Shown piece after piece: positions 21,954-50,660 of a stretch of DNA of 64,000 nucleotides. A program made the translations under genes and the position numbers. The notes under the pieces were generated by a model that was not told the origin of the DNA, did no database searches, and worked only from the letters and a program-made list of their open reading frames with translations. Origin of the DNA: Acinetobacter sp. (GTDB lineage Bacteria; Pseudomonadota; Gammaproteobacteria; Pseudomonadales; Moraxellaceae); assembly GCA_031277915.1 (NCBI GenBank), contig JAITLL010000070.1:49524-113523 (forward strand). Direction: 5' to 3'. The stretch's first letter is position 1. Every line of letters starts with the position of its first letter.

Positions 21954-22096
21954 CTATAGGGAGTTGATATTTAAATAAAAGCTCTATCTAGATTCAATAC
22001 CCTACAAAAAAAATCGGGTTTTAAAACAATTATTTCAAGCTGCTTTATGTGTAGCTTAGTTTGTCGATATGAGGCATAATGCCCTACAACGTAGCG

Positions 22097-22153
22097 GTGT
22101 CACATGATTGAGAAGTCTAAACTTTAAGACTAGCGTTCTCAATCATGCGACAC
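22097..22153 (+). promoter_or_regulatory. Long hairpin in the cyoA leader region
   Basis: Outer arms 22097-22114 and 22136-22153 pair at 17 of 18 positions. An inner stem AGTCT/AGACT closes most of the loop. It ends 56 bases before the cyoA ATG. There is no U tract, so it is not a simple terminator. It may be an mRNA-stabilising leader or, as DNA, an operator of an oxygen- or redox-responsive regulator. Confidence 0.6.
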
Positions 22154-22209
22154 TTTAATCGCTATCCCATATTTAATTAGGGAATGGGACTCTTCACCGA
22201 GGTTGTAAA

Positions 22210-23262
22210 ATGAGACAAACGATTTTAGCTGTATTGTCTTTATCAACGCTTGCCGCACTTTTGACTGGGTGTGGTGGTGATATGGTACTTCTAAACTCTA
22301 AAGGTCCAGTTGGTCAAGGTCAAAGTGACCTTATGATGACTGCGATCTATTTAATGTTACTTGTGGTGATTCCATCAATCATCATGGCATTATGGTTTGG
22401 TTGGAAATATCGTGCGTCAAATAAAGATGCAGACTATAAACCTACATGGGCACACTCAACTGCAATTGAAGTTGTAGTATGGGGTATCCCTGTCATTATT
22501 ATTGGTATTTTAGCTTGGTTAACTTGGTGGGGTTCCCACAAGTATGACCCATACCGTCCTTTAGAATCAGATAAAGCACCTTTAACTATTCAGGTTGTTG
22601 CTGAACAGTTCAAATGGATCTTTATTTATCCTGAACAAAACATTGCGACTGTTAACGAAGTACGTTTCCCAGAGAAAACTCCGTTAAGTTTCAAAATCAC
22701 TTCTAACTTCACAATGAACTCATTCTTCATTCCACAGTTAGGTGGTCAGATTTACGCAATGGCAGGTATGCAAACTCACCTTCATTTGTTAGCAAATGAA
22801 ACTGGTGTATATCGTGGTTTCTCTTCTAACTACTCAGGCTATGGTTTCTCTCAAATGCGTTTCAAAGCGCACAGTGTTACAGAGCAACAATTTAACGAAT
22901 GGGTAGCAGCTGTTAAAGCAGGTAATGGTTCGACTATTAATCCAGAAGCAGTTCAAAAAACTACGCTTGACCAAGCTGAATTGGCAACCTTACGTGATGG
23001 CGACCGTTCTAAGCACCAAATCGAGCATTTAGTGAATCGTGCTAAAGCTGCTGGTGATCAAGAAGCGCTTGCTAAAGCAGAAGCGATGAAACCGTTCCCG
23101 ACTAAGCCACACCCTGTGACTTACTACTCTTCAGTTGAACCAAAATTGTTTGAAACAATTATCAACCGTTATATGAGTAACTATCATGGTGCTGACCACT
23201 CTGCTGCACATGCAACAGCTGACACTCATGCTGCAGCTGAACACGCTGCTCAAGGGGAATAA
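22210..23262 (+). CDS. cyoA: Cytochrome bo3 ubiquinol oxidase subunit II
   Basis: 350 residues. Lipoprotein signal with LLTGC (Cys21), two membrane helices, and a periplasmic cupredoxin-like domain without the Cu-A ligands, as in quinol oxidases. After about residue 225 comes the COX aromatic-rich extension (ATLRDGDRSKHQ onward), then an Ala/His-rich tail (HAAAEHAAQG). First gene of cyoABCDE, the terminal oxidase used under good aeration. Confidence 0.96.
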   Translation: MRQTILAVLSLSTLAALLTGCGGDMVLLNSKGPVGQGQSDLMMTAIYLMLLVVIPSIIMALWFGWKYRASNKDADYKPTWAHSTAIEVVVWGIPVIIIGILAWLTWWGSHKYDPYRPLESDKAPLTIQVVAEQFKWIFIYPEQNIATVNEVRFPEKTPLSFKITSNFTMNSFFIPQLGGQIYAMAGMQTHLHLLANETGVYRGFSSNYSGYGFSQMRFKAHSVTEQQFNEWVAAVKAGNGSTINPEAVQKTTLDQAELATLRDGDRSKHQIEHLVNRAKAAGDQEALAKAEAMKPFPTKPHPVTYYSSVEPKLFETIINRYMSNYHGADHSAAHATADTHAAAEHAAQGE

Positions 23263-31110: not shown

Positions 31111-31142
31111 AAAAAAATCCAAGCTTTTGCTTGGATTTTTTT
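31111..31142. terminator. Bidirectional terminator between alr and the Anbu operon
   Basis: AAAAAAATCCAAGC, TTTT loop, GCTTGGATTTTTTT. It serves both converging transcripts. Confidence 0.92.
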
Positions 31143-31156
31143 ATTTAAAGTAATTT

Positions 31157-31891
31157 TTAACGCCAATAATCATCGGTAGGTTTTGGCATTTCTTGCAGCC
31201 CACGGCGTAAAGTATCTGACCACTGATGGCTTATTTGTGAAAAATAGGCATCATCTTCACTAATTCGCTTACCCATAGGGATTACAAAACTATCTTTAGT
31301 ATAGACTAGTGCATCTAAAGGTAAACCTACTGAAACATTAGAACGCAAAGTCGAGTCAAACGAAATTAAGCTACAGCGCAGTGCATCATCTAACGGCATT
31401 GCATAATATAAAGCACGATCTAAAATAGGCTTACCATATTTACTTTCACCAATTTGAAAGTAAGGCGTATCTGTTGTTGCACAAATAAAATTACCCTGTG
31501 GATAAACATTATAAAGCTGCATATCACCGCCTTTAATTTGTCCACCCACCAAAATACTACAGGCGTAATTCATTTGTTCTTGCGTATCTGAGCTAATATC
31601 CTCTAAAACATTTTTTAAAGTCTTACCAACTAGATCAGCTACTTCAAACATTGTGTTAATGCTATATAAGTTAGGCTCTTGTTGCAAAGTAAGGGCATTT
31701 TGCAAATGCCCAATAACTGCTTGTGTGGTTGCTAAATTACCTGCTGTTTGCAAAGCAATAAACCGCTCACCCGTCACACCAAAAGTATGAAGTTTACGAA
31801 ATACAGAAATATGATCGACCCCTGCATTAGTTCGAGTATCACTTATAAACACCAAACCCTGCTCTAATCTCAGTGCACAACAATAGGTCAT
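31157..31891 (-). CDS. Anbu proteasome-like peptidase
   Basis: 244 residues of the N-terminal-nucleophile fold related to HslV and proteasome beta subunits. Removing Met exposes Thr1 (TYCCALRL); Asp17 (ISDTRTN) and a Lys near position 32 complete the expected site. GEDMQLYN-type proteasome segments appear later as GGDMQLYNVYPQGN. Anbu proteins are known to assemble into open helical or ring-like particles; their natural substrate is not established. Last gene of a four-gene operon with a transglutaminase-like protein, an alpha-E protein and an ATP-grasp, the conserved Anbu neighbourhood. Confidence 0.88.
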   Translation of the reverse strand: MTYCCALRLEQGLVFISDTRTNAGVDHISVFRKLHTFGVTGERFIALQTAGNLATTQAVIGHLQNALTLQQEPNLYSINTMFEVADLVGKTLKNVLEDISSDTQEQMNYACSILVGGQIKGGDMQLYNVYPQGNFICATTDTPYFQIGESKYGKPILDRALYYAMPLDDALRCSLISFDSTLRSNVSVGLPLDALVYTKDSFVIPMGKRISEDDAYFSQISHQWSDTLRRGLQEMPKPTDDYWR

Positions 31892-31907
31892 TTCGCTCTC
31901 TTCACAT

Positions 31908-32687
31908 TCAACAGGCCAACACTTGAACCACAGACATCATATTTTCAACGCCACCCTTTTCTCTCACACCTCTAATCGGTGCAACATCAAGATAGTCTCG
32001 ACCAACAGCAAGATAAATATGATGCATTGGTGTAAACAATTGATTGCTTACATCAAAACAATACCACTGATTATCTAAAAATACCTCCGCCCAAGCGTGA
32101 CTGGCAAGGTGGGGGAAATTATGATCAAATAGATAGCCAGAGACATAACGTGCTGGTAATTGTAACGCACGGCACATAGCAATTAAAACATGTGCATGAT
32201 CTTGACATACCCCCTGTCCTGCATGAAAACACTCTGTAGCAATTGCATGAACAGAGGTACTATCTGGTTGATAAGGCATCTTTTGCAAAATATTTTCGCT
32301 GAGTAAAGCAATATGTTTTCGATCTTTTACCGTTACAATTCTCCGAGCAAAATCCAACATTTCAGCATCATATTTTGTGGCTTCTGTATTTTGAAGAAAT
32401 AGGTTCATAGGTATAGGTACATTTACTCCACCTATTTCTGTATTAAGAAGCTCGACAATCCCTTGTGCCATAAAAGTTAAATGCTGATACTCATAGCGCT
32501 GAGTAGCCGTTAACCAAATATTATTAAAGATATCCCTTTTGAGCGTTTTATCACCAGGCACACTGATTGCCCAATTCAAGACATGCTGATGTAATGATGT
32601 TTGAGGCATCATTTTAATATACTGAATACTGTTTTTAGCAGTTTCAGTATAGTGATAATGCGTTTGATGATTGATCATCAGTTTCAT
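31908..32687 (-). CDS. Transglutaminase-like cysteine peptidase family protein
   Basis: 259 residues. An N-terminal bacterial transglutaminase-like beta domain (LMINHQTHYHYTE) precedes the papain-like core. The triad is visible as Cys161 in GQGVCQDHAHV, His197 in ASHAWAEVF and Asp212 in CFDVSNQ. In these clusters such proteins are thought to cleave or transfer peptide amide bonds; the true reaction is unknown. Two bases separate it from the upstream alpha-E gene and 16 from the downstream Anbu gene, so all are cotranscribed. Confidence 0.9.
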   Translation of the reverse strand: MKLMINHQTHYHYTETAKNSIQYIKMMPQTSLHQHVLNWAISVPGDKTLKRDIFNNIWLTATQRYEYQHLTFMAQGIVELLNTEIGGVNVPIPMNLFLQNTEATKYDAEMLDFARRIVTVKDRKHIALLSENILQKMPYQPDSTSVHAIATECFHAGQGVCQDHAHVLIAMCRALQLPARYVSGYLFDHNFPHLASHAWAEVFLDNQWYCFDVSNQLFTPMHHIYLAVGRDYLDVAPIRGVREKGGVENMMSVVQVLAC

Positions 32688-32689
32688 AA

Positions 32690-33286
32690 TTATGCCTCGA
32701 ACATATATTCCAACTGCTGTGTGAAATTATAGTAACCCTCCCAATTTGGATGATCTTTCAACAATGTCCACACTTCATTTAATTTATCCCACCCTAAGTC
32801 ATTATGTCGTTTGAGTAATTTTTCCAGATCTTGTAAAAGTCCTGTAAGGTCTTGTTGAAAACGTAGTTGTATATCGAATTGTTCTATCTTTTGCCCTAAT
32901 TGCAGAAAGAGTGCAATATCCTCATGTTCAGCACTAAGTATTTGATTACATTTATCTAAAGCCTGATTTAATGAATCAGGATTAGCTTGAATAGACTTAA
33001 TTGCATGATTCAATTCCGCATACGCGCTAGAAGATAATATTCCTCTTAATTCATGTATATTATCTTTGGCAATAGCAAACTGGTTCAGTAACGAATATGT
33101 TTGTTGAGTATCTAACATATAGCAATTCAGTAATTCCGCTTGATCAATAAACAGCCCAAATGCTGATGCAAATTGACTTGCTTTGTCATCATTTGTAAAT
33201 GGCAAGTGTGATACAGCAAATTTAATCCGCATTAAATAACGGCCCAACCAATAAATGTGGTGCGCACTCGAATTGAGTAAAACCAT
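32690..33286 (-). CDS. Alpha-E domain (DUF403) protein
   Basis: 198 helical residues starting MVLLNSSAHHIYWLGRYLMR, the hallmark of the alpha-E family found beside circularly permuted ATP-grasp enzymes. The frame extends to 33328, overlapping the preceding gene. The ATG at 33286 has AGAGGA about seven bases upstream and restores the family start, so it is preferred. It is shorter than the roughly 300 residues I recall for many alpha-E proteins, though it has a full set of helices and no frameshift. Probably a scaffold or partner of the ATP-grasp enzyme. Confidence 0.85.
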   Translation of the reverse strand: MVLLNSSAHHIYWLGRYLMRIKFAVSHLPFTNDDKASQFASAFGLFIDQAELLNCYMLDTQQTYSLLNQFAIAKDNIHELRGILSSSAYAELNHAIKSIQANPDSLNQALDKCNQILSAEHEDIALFLQLGQKIEQFDIQLRFQQDLTGLLQDLEKLLKRHNDLGWDKLNEVWTLLKDHPNWEGYYNFTQQLEYMFEA

Positions 33287-33308
33287 AAATTTCCTCTTTA
33301 ACCAATTA

Positions 33309-34859
33309 TTAGGAATGTAATGTCTCAACGACCCATGTATCTTTAATACCCCCTCCTTGTGAGGAATTTACGACTAAAGATCCTGCCTGCATAGCTACTC
33401 GTGTTAAGCCTCCGGGCACAATTTCAGTACGATAAGGAGAACTCAATACAAACGGTCGTAGGTCAATGTGACGTTCAGCCACTCCTGATGTTGTTAAAGT
33501 CGGTGCAACAGATAAAGCCAATGTTGGCTGTGCAATATATTCATGCGGTGTAGCAATCAGTTTTTTTCTAAATTCATCAATTTCACATGAGCTCGCTTTA
33601 GGTCCAATTAACATGCCATAACCGCCAGACCCCTGAGCCTCTTTAATTACTAATTGGTCAATATGAGTGAGTACATAATCTAAATGTTCTTTTTCTCGAC
33701 ATTGATAAGTAGGTACATTCTTTAAAACTGGTGTTTCTCCCAAATAATACTGAATCATCTGATCAACATATGGATAAATCGATTTATCGTCAGCTACCCC
33801 AGTACCTGGTGCATTGGCAATAACTACATTTTTCTGTAAATAAGCAGACATAAGCCCTGCCACCCCAAGAGCACTATCAGGTCGAAATGTAAGTGGATCT
33901 AAGAAATCGTCATCTAAACGTCGATAAATCACATCAACTTTCTGGCGCCCTCGAATCGTTTTAACAAAAACTTGATCACGTTCTACAAATAAATCTCGGT
34001 TAGTAACCAGTGGTACATCCATTTCACGCGCTAAAAAAGCATGCTCATAATAAGCACTGTTAAAACGTCCTGGCGTTAAGACCACAATAAAGGGTTGATC
34101 AACTTCTGAATTTTCTTGAAGTATTTCTTTTAATAAACTTGGATAATGTTCAATTCCTTGTAAATTATTGGCAGCACAAAGTTCAGGCATGAGTTGTTGA
34201 CTAATATTTCTACTTTCAATCATATATGACACGCCAGAAGGTGTTCTTAGGTTATCTTCTAGTACAAAAAACTCCCCATCACCATCACGAATAATATCTA
34301 TGCCACTAATTTGAGAATAAATTTTACCTTTAAGTGAATGCTTGAGCATATGTGGCTGAAAAGCCTCATGACAAACAATCTGGTTCTCTGGAATTAATTT
34401 CTCCTTCAAAATATGTTGTCCATGATAAATATCATCTAAAAAGTAATTTAAAGCTTTAACTCGCTGCGCACAGCCTGCTGCAATTTTTTCCCATTGTTTT
34501 TTTTCAATTACTCTTGGAATTAAATCAAAAGGGATGGTCCGTTCTGCACCTTCTTTATCACCATATACATTAAAAGTAATGCCATGATAAAGAAAATGTT
34601 GTTTGGCCTGAGCATTTAATTGCTTAAGCTCATCTAAGGTACGAATACTCAACCATTGCTCAATTTTTTTAGAAGCCGCCCCATTTGACGTCACATCATC
34701 TAACATCTCATTAAAAAACTGAGACTTGAGCTGTTCAAATAAATTTGTCTGAACAGAAATACTTTGTATAAATGAAGTCTGGTTGAGTAGTGCATTGGCC
34801 GCTTGGTCTTGTAAAAAATAATCAATATCAGTTTGTAGGTCTTTCTCTTGTTCTGACAT
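33309..34859 (-). CDS. Circularly permuted ATP-grasp (type 2) protein
   Basis: 516 residues. The family hallmarks are HEAFQPHMLKHSLKGKIYSQISGIDIIRDGDGEFFVLEDNLRTPSG around residues 165-215, VDVIYRRLDDDFLDP near 320 and an IKEAQGSGGYGM nucleotide-binding segment near 410 (given here as key residues). ATP-grasp enzymes join a carboxylate to an amine using ATP. In comparative genomics this type is predicted to make a peptide or to tag proteins with one. First gene of the Anbu operon, divergent from a WYL regulator. Confidence 0.88.
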   Translation of the reverse strand: MSEQEKDLQTDIDYFLQDQAANALLNQTSFIQSISVQTNLFEQLKSQFFNEMLDDVTSNGAASKKIEQWLSIRTLDELKQLNAQAKQHFLYHGITFNVYGDKEGAERTIPFDLIPRVIEKKQWEKIAAGCAQRVKALNYFLDDIYHGQHILKEKLIPENQIVCHEAFQPHMLKHSLKGKIYSQISGIDIIRDGDGEFFVLEDNLRTPSGVSYMIESRNISQQLMPELCAANNLQGIEHYPSLLKEILQENSEVDQPFIVVLTPGRFNSAYYEHAFLAREMDVPLVTNRDLFVERDQVFVKTIRGRQKVDVIYRRLDDDFLDPLTFRPDSALGVAGLMSAYLQKNVVIANAPGTGVADDKSIYPYVDQMIQYYLGETPVLKNVPTYQCREKEHLDYVLTHIDQLVIKEAQGSGGYGMLIGPKASSCEIDEFRKKLIATPHEYIAQPTLALSVAPTLTTSGVAERHIDLRPFVLSSPYRTEIVPGGLTRVAMQAGSLVVNSSQGGGIKDTWVVETLHS

Positions 34860-35044
34860 AGCAACCTCGTCTTATCATTTATCTATATTTCATTTTTAAA
34901 TAAGCAATTTCAGTGCCACTTATATATCTATAATACTTATTGGCTTTAATTGTTATAACTGTCTTCTAAATTTTAACATTGATTGTAACGGTAGCCACAA
35001 ACTGAATCTGACAAACTTGCTAAATGTGTAAAGTTTTTTTATTG

Positions 35045-35084: not shown

Positions 35085-36092
35085 ATGTCTGTAATAGAAA
35101 AAGAAACTTCAAATAGTTTATATCGCCAATGGCAGATTTTATCTCGCCTCCCTACCGGTAAATGGATCGGAACTCGAGAATTACAAGAAATGCTTGAGCG
35201 AGAAGGTATTGAAATCAGTTTAAGGACTATTCAGCGTGATTTAAATCAAATTGCCCAGCGCTTTCCAATTGAAAGCAATAAAGCCGTACCTCAAGGCTGG
35301 CGTTGGCAATCAGATGCTCCAATTCAAAGCCTACCGCATATGACAAGCTCTCAAGCAGTTACCTTTATGATGGTTGAAGAACATCTCAAACATTTACTTC
35401 CACCTAGCCTACTAGATGAAATGGGTCCTTGGTTTGACTTGGCAAAACGCAGTCTATCTACACAGAATAATGTCAGACAATGGATTAATCGTGTACGCAT
35501 TGTGCCAGCAAGTCAGCCGCTTATTCCACCTGTAGTCGATCGGGCCGCTCAACAAGCAATATACGAAGGCTTGCTACAAGACAAACAAATTGAATGTGTA
35601 TATCAAGCTCGTGTAAACCAAGGTGAAGACAAAACTTATATTTTAAATCCACTTGCTTTGGTCCAAAAAGGTGCTGTTATTTATTTAATTTGTACCCGAC
35701 ATGACAAAACTGAAGTGCAAACATTTGCTTTGCACCGTTTCAAATCAGCAAAAGTTTTAGAAAGTCGTGCGCTTCACCCCGTCAATTTTGATATTGATCA
35801 CTATATTGACTCAGGTGCTTTAGGTTTTAGAGTAGATTACAGCCAACCAACCGAATCTATTCAACTCACATTAACTATGACAGAACAAACTGCCAAAACT
35901 TTTTATGAAAGCCAGTTAAGCAAAGATCAGACAATTACTCCGATTGAAGAAAATATTGTCGAAGTTACAGCGACCGTTCCATTTACATCTCAATTAGTAT
36001 GGTGGTTACGAAGTTATGGTAAGAAACTGCTGCATATTGAACCAATTCAAGTACACAATGCTGTACGTGAAATTGAGCCAGATCATAAATAG
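35085..36092 (+). CDS. WYL-domain transcriptional regulator
   Basis: 335 residues. N-terminal winged helix-turn-helix (TRELQEMLEREGIEISLRTI, then QRDLNQIAQRFPIE), a WYL domain in the middle (IECVYQARVNQ, ILNPLALVQKGAVIYLICTR) and a C-terminal WCX-type extension. WYL proteins sense ligands, often nucleic acid or nucleotide species, and regulate stress or defence genes. It is divergent from the Anbu operon and may control it. That is inferred from position only. Confidence 0.87.
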   Translation: MSVIEKETSNSLYRQWQILSRLPTGKWIGTRELQEMLEREGIEISLRTIQRDLNQIAQRFPIESNKAVPQGWRWQSDAPIQSLPHMTSSQAVTFMMVEEHLKHLLPPSLLDEMGPWFDLAKRSLSTQNNVRQWINRVRIVPASQPLIPPVVDRAAQQAIYEGLLQDKQIECVYQARVNQGEDKTYILNPLALVQKGAVIYLICTRHDKTEVQTFALHRFKSAKVLESRALHPVNFDIDHYIDSGALGFRVDYSQPTESIQLTLTMTEQTAKTFYESQLSKDQTITPIEENIVEVTATVPFTSQLVWWLRSYGKKLLHIEPIQVHNAVREIEPDHK

Positions 36093-49361: not shown

Positions 49362-50660
49362 TTAATTCACTTTCGATTTGCGTAATGCTTTATCTAGAAC
49401 ATCCTTGTCCAAAGCTTTATCCCAACGAGCAACAACGATTGTCGCACATGCATTACCAATGAGGTTTGTTAAAGCACGGCATTCCGACATAAAACGGTCA
49501 ATACCTAAAATAAGTGCCATACCAGCAACAGGTACAGATGGCACAACCGATAAAGTTGCTGCAAGCGTAATAAAGCCTGCTCCTGTTACCCCTGCTGCAC
49601 CTTTCGAACTCACCATTGCAACTAAAAGCAATGCAAACTGCTCACCAATTGACAAATCTACATTACATGCTTGTGCAATAAATAAAGCAGCCATAGTCAT
49701 ATAAATGTTGGTACCATCAAGGTTAAAAGAGTAACCTGTCGGAATAACCAAGCCCACCACAGATTTTTCACAACCCGCTTTTTGCATTTTATCCATTAAA
49801 GACGGTAAAGCCGCTTCAGATGAACTTGTACCTAAAACCAACCAAAGCTCATCTTTAATATAGCGAACTAAATCAATAATTGAAAAACCGTTGTAGCGTG
49901 CTACAGCACCTAAAACAATTAATACAAACAGCGCAGCCGTGATATAGAAAGTCATAATTAACAGTAATAGATTACCGATTGACTGAATTCCATATGCCCC
50001 AATGGTAAATGCCATAGCTCCAAAAGCACCAATTGGCGCAAGTTTCATTAACATGCCAACCAAGTAGAAAACTGGAGCTGTTAGATTATTTAAGAAATCT
50101 GTGACTGGACGTGCACGATCACCTAATGCAGCCAAAGAAATACCAAATAACACAGCCACAAATAAGACCTGCAAAATTTCACCACCAGCAAGCGGACTTA
50201 CTAGTGTCTGTGGGATAATATTCATGAAAAAGTCAGTAATATTGGTGGCATGAGCCTTTTCAACGTAAGTATTTACTTTGTCACTTACTAAAGTAGCTGG
50301 GTCAATATTTAAACCTTTACCAGGTTGAATGATGTTTGCCACAATCATGCCAACCACAAGTGCAATACTAGAAAAAGTAATGAAATACAGCATTGCTTTA
50401 CCCGTTACACGCCCAACCCGACTCATGTTCGTCATGCTGGCAATACCGGTTACCACAGTCAAAAAGATTACGGGAGCAATAATCATTTTGACGATTTTAA
50501 TAAATGCATCACCAAGCGGTTTTAAGCTTTCACCAAGTTCTGGGTAAAAATGACCAATTAAAACGCCTAAAATAATTGCAAAAATGACCTGTACATACAA
50601 AATTTGATGGAACTTCTGTTTTTTCTGTACCGTTTCTTGGTCAAGGGTATTGAAATCCAT
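49362..50660 (-). CDS. dctA: C4-dicarboxylate/proton symporter DctA
   Basis: 432 residues of the DAACS family with eight membrane helices and two re-entrant hairpins. The serine-rich [14 protein letters not shown], the [21 protein letters not shown] segment, [14 protein letters not shown] and [18 protein letters not shown] agree with DctA more closely than with GltP. It takes up succinate, fumarate and malate, favoured carbon sources for Acinetobacter. Single gene. Confidence 0.88.

Follow-up and report, generated by a model that had tools for sequence, protein, structure and literature searches.

The Anbu operon of Acinetobacter: a sigma54-type promoter, a reduced alpha-E protein and an Anbu peptidase that outlives its ATP-grasp ligase

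A 64,000-nucleotide stretch of an Acinetobacter sp. draft genome (assembly GCA_031277915.1, contig JAITLL010000070.1, forward-strand positions 49,524 to 113,523; hereafter the window) carries an Anbu operon, in which the gene of a proteasome-like peptidase lies beside that of an ATP-grasp ligase. Four minus-strand open reading frames (ORFs) occupy exactly 34859-31157 and encode, in order of transcription, an ATP-grasp protein, an alpha-E protein, a transglutaminase-like protein and Anbu (Table 1). The gaps between them are 22, 2 and 16 bp when alpha-E is counted from the ATG at 33286; the mechanical ORF of alpha-E begins earlier, at a TTG at 33328. The spacing suggests that the four genes are cotranscribed, and the list of ORFs of at least 80 amino acids (aa), which leaves shorter ORFs outside, contains only these four within 31157-34859. 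The ORFs and the Pfam and PDB matches thus bear out the initial annotation, which had described these four genes in this order and at these coordinates, with gaps of 2 to 22 bp.

Table 1. Features of the Anbu locus, in coordinates of the window
Feature	Position	Strand	Details
Circularly permuted ATP-grasp type 2, putative amide/peptide ligase	33309..34859	-	516 aa; PF14403 504.8 bits, E 1.8e-151; PF04174 429.3 bits
Miniaturised alpha-E	32690..33286	-	198 aa from ATG at 33286; PF04168 E 1e-9, 39 bits
Transglutaminase-like protein (Bact_transglu_N + Transglut_core)	31908..32687	-	259 aa; PF01841 75.1 bits, PF08379 49 bits
Anbu proteasome-like peptidase	31157..31891	-	244 aa, Thr1 after Met removal; PDB matches
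Predicted sigma54 (-24/-12) promoter, TGGCACTGAAATTGCT	34903..34918	-	starts 59 bp before ATP-grasp ATG; own-genome position G000:C22:84426-84441
Likely bidirectional terminator, ATCCAAGC-TTTT-GCTTGGAT with A and T tracts	31111..31142	.	between alr and Anbu; read from sequence
Divergent WYL/WCX-domain regulator	35085..36092	+	PF13280, PF25583

The ATP-grasp protein is covered by PF14403 over the full profile (1-374 of 374), and PDB entry 3n6x aligns to its residues 65-511 (E 4e-160). The transglutaminase-like translation contains GVCQD, HAWAE and FDVS, which we take to be the motifs of the catalytic Cys, His and Asp; strict patterns for the three occur in 140, 130 and 129 of 141 genus proteins, a total in which short fragments are counted. 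Anbu matches PDB entries 5lox, 5nyw, 5loy, 5nyj and 5nyf (E 8.8e-84 to 8.9e-65), the best alignment, to 5lox, spanning residues 2-242 of 244. Thr1, Asp17 and Lys32, residues whose roles are described in PMC6376114, are present in the window protein, so that its N-terminal Thr is intact as annotated, and in all 121 Anbu proteins extracted from loci of the genus. Residues 45-53 read ALQTAGNLA, an S1 pocket without the Arg pair R46 and R50 that is described for Anbu-2 (PMC5666114), which places the protein in the Anbu-1 subtype. The ATP-grasp site looks intact on alignment. Columns invariant in the outgroups are kept by at least 95% of the genus proteins at 154 of 168 positions in ATP-grasp (142 proteins), 39 of 47 in the transglutaminase-like protein and 49 of 52 in Anbu. 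The initial view that all visible catalytic residues are intact is therefore upheld for these three proteins; it does not extend to alpha-E, in which the ER motif reads MR. Among the matches listed, many proteobacteria also carry a second PF14403 protein, in open frames of ~800-900 aa and perhaps a fusion.

The alpha-E protein of the window is reduced, a feature that the initial annotation had missed. Its PF04168 match, at 39 bits against a curated cut-off of 20.8, covers only positions 5-171 of the 294 in the profile; in the 176 Acinetobacter genomes analysed the profile is matched above the cut-off in 137. The C-terminal third (~100 aa), with the PRSL motif, is gone. The first ER motif, RYLER, reads RYLMR and the second, GTxIERAD, reads GQKIEQFD; in the alignment, the Glu of the first and the Arg of the second are lost in all rows from Acinetobacter, Alkanindiges and Agitococcus. 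The length is ~200 aa in Acinetobacter, 200 in Alkanindiges and 247 in Agitococcus. At the 23 named Acinetobacter loci measured alpha-E has 198-201 aa and no ER motif, and at the 32 measured loci of other orders it has 308-322 aa with the motif; the automatic measurement missed 18 of 74 named loci with ATP-grasp, five of which were read by hand for the alignment. One further short protein (199 aa, without the first ER) comes from an unclassified gammaproteobacterial metagenome-assembled genome (L302). Having neither the ER motif nor the full-length domain of the alpha-E family, the window protein is classed here as a derived relative only. The predicted models of alpha-E are confident and all-helical, with a mean predicted local distance difference test score of 94.2 for the window protein and 87.3 for the other, and comparison with the PDB gave no informative match. 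Either the ER residues are dispensable for the chemistry of the operon or alpha-E now serves as a scaffold in Acinetobacter. At three loci (L272, L273 and L274, of genomes G168, G169 and G117) alpha-E is found beside the WYL gene and next to a 395-aa gene, presumably thiolase-like, without Anbu or ATP-grasp.

The other feature missed at first, and one that links the operon to nitrogen limitation, lies upstream of it. At 34918-34903, TGGCACTGAAATTGCT fits the -24/-12 consensus of sigma54 promoters. We took upstream regions from every sampled Acinetobacter genome with a near-full ATP-grasp gene, 144 loci including the window, leaving out G157, in which ATP-grasp is split in two frames, and G049, in which it is broken. 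The pattern TGGCAYN5TTGCW was found within -400 to +60 bp of the estimated ATP-grasp start at 142 of these loci; of the two that miss it, one (L233) comes close to the pattern and the other (L241) has diverged from it. Only 9 other matches were found across the 144 loci, in 1,458,722 strand-bases. In an alignment of 31 loci anchored on the pattern matches the flanks drift, so that conservation of the site is not merely the result of overall similarity. The pattern is absent between Anbu and the WYL gene at all six loci, described below, where ATP-grasp is lost or broken, and a Fisher test of its association with an intact ATP-grasp gives p = 2e-9, uncorrected for relatedness. Our confidence in a sigma54-type promoter element is high.

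The window's own genome contains the pattern 21 times, against 7 for the reversed-pattern control. The genes behind these sites include those of an ammonium transporter (PF00909), an ANTAR-domain response regulator, an OHCU decarboxylase of uric-acid catabolism, a xanthine/uracil-family permease and a NarK-type transporter of the major facilitator superfamily (304 bits, just below the curated cut-off) and, farther off, a glutamate/aspartate-type ATP-binding cassette permease (298 bp) and glutamate synthase (259 bp). NtrC is encoded in the same genome (747 bits). RpoN is missing from the draft because a contig ends ~115 bp before the sigma54 domain; the sigma54 DNA-binding domain is found in 171 of the 176 genus genomes. 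One single-contig, 99% complete Acinetobacter genome (G149) has no match for this domain, Anbu, PF14403 or WYL, a single case.

Beyond the genus, many gamma- and beta-proteobacteria also have good sigma54 sites ahead of the operon. Among 60 loci of the class and phylum samples, which are the best-scoring matches that became loci, 18 score at least 11 of 13, where 0.99 would be expected from Markov shuffles. At 71 named loci with complete upstream regions (23 from Acinetobacter) a score of at least 10 is reached by 64 and of at least 11 by 38, and other windows of the same loci give control expectations of 6.3 and 0.9. Nine of the 80 named loci are outside this set, six because the Anbu strand carries no ATP-grasp and three because they are truncated upstream. 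A good site is present at each of the 11 loci scored from Pseudomonadales. A perfect GCACN7GTGC palindrome, of the NtrC type, lies within 300 bp upstream at 12 of 64 loci, as against 1.1% of control windows (Pseudomonas, Erwinia and Pantoea three each; Serratia, Yersinia and Agitococcus one each). Published work bears on the same control. A 2025 survey (PMC12316311) places COG3484, a 'proteasome-type protease' that is taken to be Anbu, among the predicted sigma54 targets in proteobacteria. In Pseudomonas putida, PP_2686-2688 are up 11-15-fold under nitrogen limitation, with PP_2685 (Anbu) at 1.12-fold in the wild type (PMC7801951), and in Burkholderia cenocepacia the NtrC/sigma54 regulon includes a related cluster, I35_5080-83, down 6-9-fold in an ntrC mutant (PMC5491218).

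Anbu persists where the ligase has been lost. It is encoded in 151 of the 176 Acinetobacter genomes and PF14403 is matched in 146, all of which also encode Anbu. The five genomes with Anbu and no PF14403 match (G034, G036, G099, G147 and G173) are losses confirmed by synteny, as Anbu adjoins the WYL gene in four of them and G036 retains alpha-E together with Anbu. A sixth case, G049, is counted among the 146 and has only fragments of ATP-grasp, which lie with pieces of the transglutaminase-like gene beside a full-length Anbu. Each of these six genomes encodes an Anbu of full length (244 aa) that retains T1, D17 and K32. In a tree of Anbu DNA, G034, G099 and G173 group together in a single clade (support 1.0), outside which G147, G036 and G049 branch separately; support for the precise position of G036 is weak, yet it lies inside a 14-member clade with support 1.0. 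The tree thus implies four losses of the ligase. The clade of three has a common WYL-Anbu junction, with 207-208 bp of intergenic DNA that is 85-90% identical, which is most simply explained by one old deletion. Among these three Anbu genes, dN is 0.021-0.024 and dS is 1.38, 2.05 or saturated, and the two computable dN/dS values are 0.010 and 0.018 (from a set of 111 of the 121 Anbu genes, those of 732 bases). Anbu in this lineage is therefore under strong purifying selection after the loss of the ligase. We have high confidence in the loss pattern and moderate confidence that the function of Anbu is separable from the ligase.

Both the operon and its likely functionality were known before. 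As the initial annotation had noted, the neighbourhood is known: the operon type was described by Fuchs in 2017 (PMC5666114) and by Piasecka in 2018 (PMC6376114), both of which refer to Iyer 2009 and to Valas and Bourne 2008, and Fuchs et al. judged protein degradation likelier than peptide synthesis. Anbu, a proteasome relative regarded as close to the root of the family, received its name in 2008 and was still listed with no known function in a survey of 2021 (PMC8665760); the initial annotation was right to name no substrate. The closest known systems include the P. putida operon PP_2685-PP_2688 and the P. aeruginosa-type Anbu (PDB 5LOX). The P. putida operon has all four genes in common with the window and reported nitrogen-linked expression (PMC7801951, PMC3325844), but the Pseudomonas alpha-E has 316 aa and the ER motif. 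The Yersinia bercovieri operon has the same gene set, order and candidate catalytic Thr1, Asp17 and Lys32 (PMC6376114), whereas alpha-E of Y. alsatica (L321), standing in for that species, has 309 aa and the ER motif. The B. cenocepacia cluster I35_5080-83 encodes DUF404/407, DUF403 and transglutaminase-like proteins as in the window, but the product annotated for its fourth gene is a large transglutaminase-like protein and not Anbu (PMC5491218). A looser functional parallel may be drawn. The actinobacterial Pup-proteasome also combines a ligase and a proteasome-fold enzyme in one neighbourhood, with a ligase type unrelated to this ATP-grasp. By its Pfam content, the operon of the window is without an AAA ATPase, unlike the Pup system, and Anbu persists without the ligase.

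Downstream of the operon lie alr and dnaB, in convergent orientation and named from their translations. The terminator in Table 1 was not listed by a consensus terminator scan. The WYL regulator is a mere neighbour of the operon and not specific to it, with a relative (E 1e-60 or better) in 172 of the 176 genus genomes as against 151 for Anbu. In the 31-locus alignment, the interval between the WYL gene and ATP-grasp has a second, partly conserved block, ACACAATAAAAAAACT...GGCAAG, closer to the WYL gene and perhaps its own sigma70 promoter. Elsewhere in the window, 22035-22234 gives its one Rfam match, AbsR11, an Acinetobacter small RNA (244 bits).

We consider it probable, at roughly 0.6, that the window holds an Acinetobacter form of the known operon in which a nitrogen-limitation sigma54 promoter drives an amide-forming core module and Anbu is a separable peptidase. 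The operon would be transcribed from the sigma54 promoter when nitrogen is limiting, with NtrC as the presumed activator. ATP-grasp, alpha-E and the transglutaminase-like protein would most likely make or remodel an amide-linked product: ATP-grasp may activate a carboxylate as an acyl phosphate and join it to an amine, the Cys-His-Asp enzyme may transfer or cleave amide bonds, and alpha-E may serve as a helical scaffold. Anbu would be a separable N-terminal nucleophile (Ntn) peptidase, most likely hydrolysing peptides or amides for nitrogen recycling in a common stress context, independently of the product of the ligase. Our confidence in any specific proposal for the chemistry is low.

Several observations weigh against this interpretation. 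Chance would be expected to supply about a third of the 21 pattern matches in the window's genome, and many of the matches lie before genes without an obvious link to nitrogen (a cytochrome bd subunit, a TonB receptor plug, ribonucleotide reductase, an AraC regulator, MetW, a tRNA methyltransferase and others). None of the 22 Acinetobacter loci scored carries an NtrC-type palindrome (1-3 mismatches in 8), unlike Pseudomonas with its three perfect loci, and the site of the ammonium transporter has none before it either (3 mismatches). Alphaproteobacterial loci score 11 in none of seven cases and 10 in two, and a four-gene Anbu operon of B. cenocepacia examined separately (L378) has no good sigma54 site, its best score being 9. 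A P. putida rpoN mutant still induces the core genes 14-20-fold (PMC7801951, Table 2), which argues against strict sigma54 dependence there, and in another study PP2685 (Anbu) itself is 11.1-fold up under nitrogen limitation (PMC3325844), unlike the 1.12-fold given above. The literature is thus in conflict as to whether expression is lost without rpoN or ntrC, the related cluster of B. cenocepacia saying yes and the P. putida rpoN mutant no. As to Anbu, no activity is reported in the literature examined, and the family-invariant Asp of SFDST is Ala in one Acinetobacter clade of 20 of the 121 proteins (support 0.984; L162, L167, L185, L134 and 16 further loci, including the genome with the broken ATP-grasp), the window protein retaining the Asp. 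An orphan Anbu could also be fed by another, unrelated ligase, as our ligase search covered PF14403 only.

Of the other explanations, the best supported is that the product of the operon is a soluble metabolite of peptide or amide nature, a nitrogen store or an osmolyte-like compound, from which Anbu, as a dedicated hydrolase, recycles nitrogen. The nitrogen-type promoter is consistent with this, as are the name of the closest solved ATP-grasp, 3n6x, a putative glutathionylspermidine synthase, and the finding that the Y. bercovieri ATP-grasp releases phosphate from ATP (PMC6376114). A dedicated hydrolase should go with its synthase, however, and Anbu stays, while induction in nitrogen shortage would seem to fit consumption better than storage; we regard this explanation as doubtful. 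The initial annotation had given, beside such a metabolite, the making and removal of a peptide tag, a reading that reportedly goes back to Iyer in 2009: ATP-grasp would attach the tag to proteins and Anbu, dependent on the ligase, would remove it or degrade the tagged proteins. The conserved four-gene order, the intact sites of both enzymes and the presence of Anbu in 146 of 146 genus genomes with a PF14403 match speak for such a cycle. The reading is nevertheless weakened by the retention of Anbu in four lineages in which ATP-grasp is gone or broken, and further by the three-species lineage, the one where purifying selection is demonstrable, in which the protein has barely changed with synonymous sites near saturation. 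Among 20 fetched ATP-grasp loci of the class and phylum samples, moreover, six have no Anbu match inside the 4.3-8.7 kb read, and in PMC6376114 Anbu is reported to be inactive on the substrates tried and not to stimulate ATP-grasp, and the operon proteins to show no specific interaction with one another. The survival of Anbu under purifying selection after ligase loss makes an obligatory model in which Anbu removes the tag of the ligase unlikely in Acinetobacter, and a tag cycle is improbable overall. That orphan Anbu, orphan alpha-E and empty loci are stages of an outgoing operon, Anbu surviving by chance, would accord with the broken fragments in G049, with the 25 of 176 genomes without Anbu and with the six such loci fetched (three keep alpha-E only, two show a clean alr|WYL junction and the last has no alr either), but random decay is already unlikely, and the least credible account of the three, given six full-length ligase-less Anbu genes with all three catalytic residues and dN/dS values this low at high synonymous divergence since one shared deletion.

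What is added here to the known operon is the genus-wide sigma54-type site, the survival of Anbu beyond its ligase and the miniaturised alpha-E. On the reading of a nitrogen-controlled operon, nitrogen-type control would apply to the core ligase module, from which Anbu can be separated. We further speculate, giving the idea an even chance, that Anbu is a peptidase in its own right, recruited by a ligase operon that serves in nitrogen starvation; sigma54 control would then belong to the ligase module, and an Anbu without this module would lose the promoter and keep a separate, important role in housekeeping or stress. The natural ligase-free species with a selected Anbu provide a background for studying Anbu without its operon partners, the stripped-down alpha-E helps to show which parts of alpha-E are dispensable, and the genus-wide nitrogen-type promoter points to a growth condition in which the Anbu operon may be tested.

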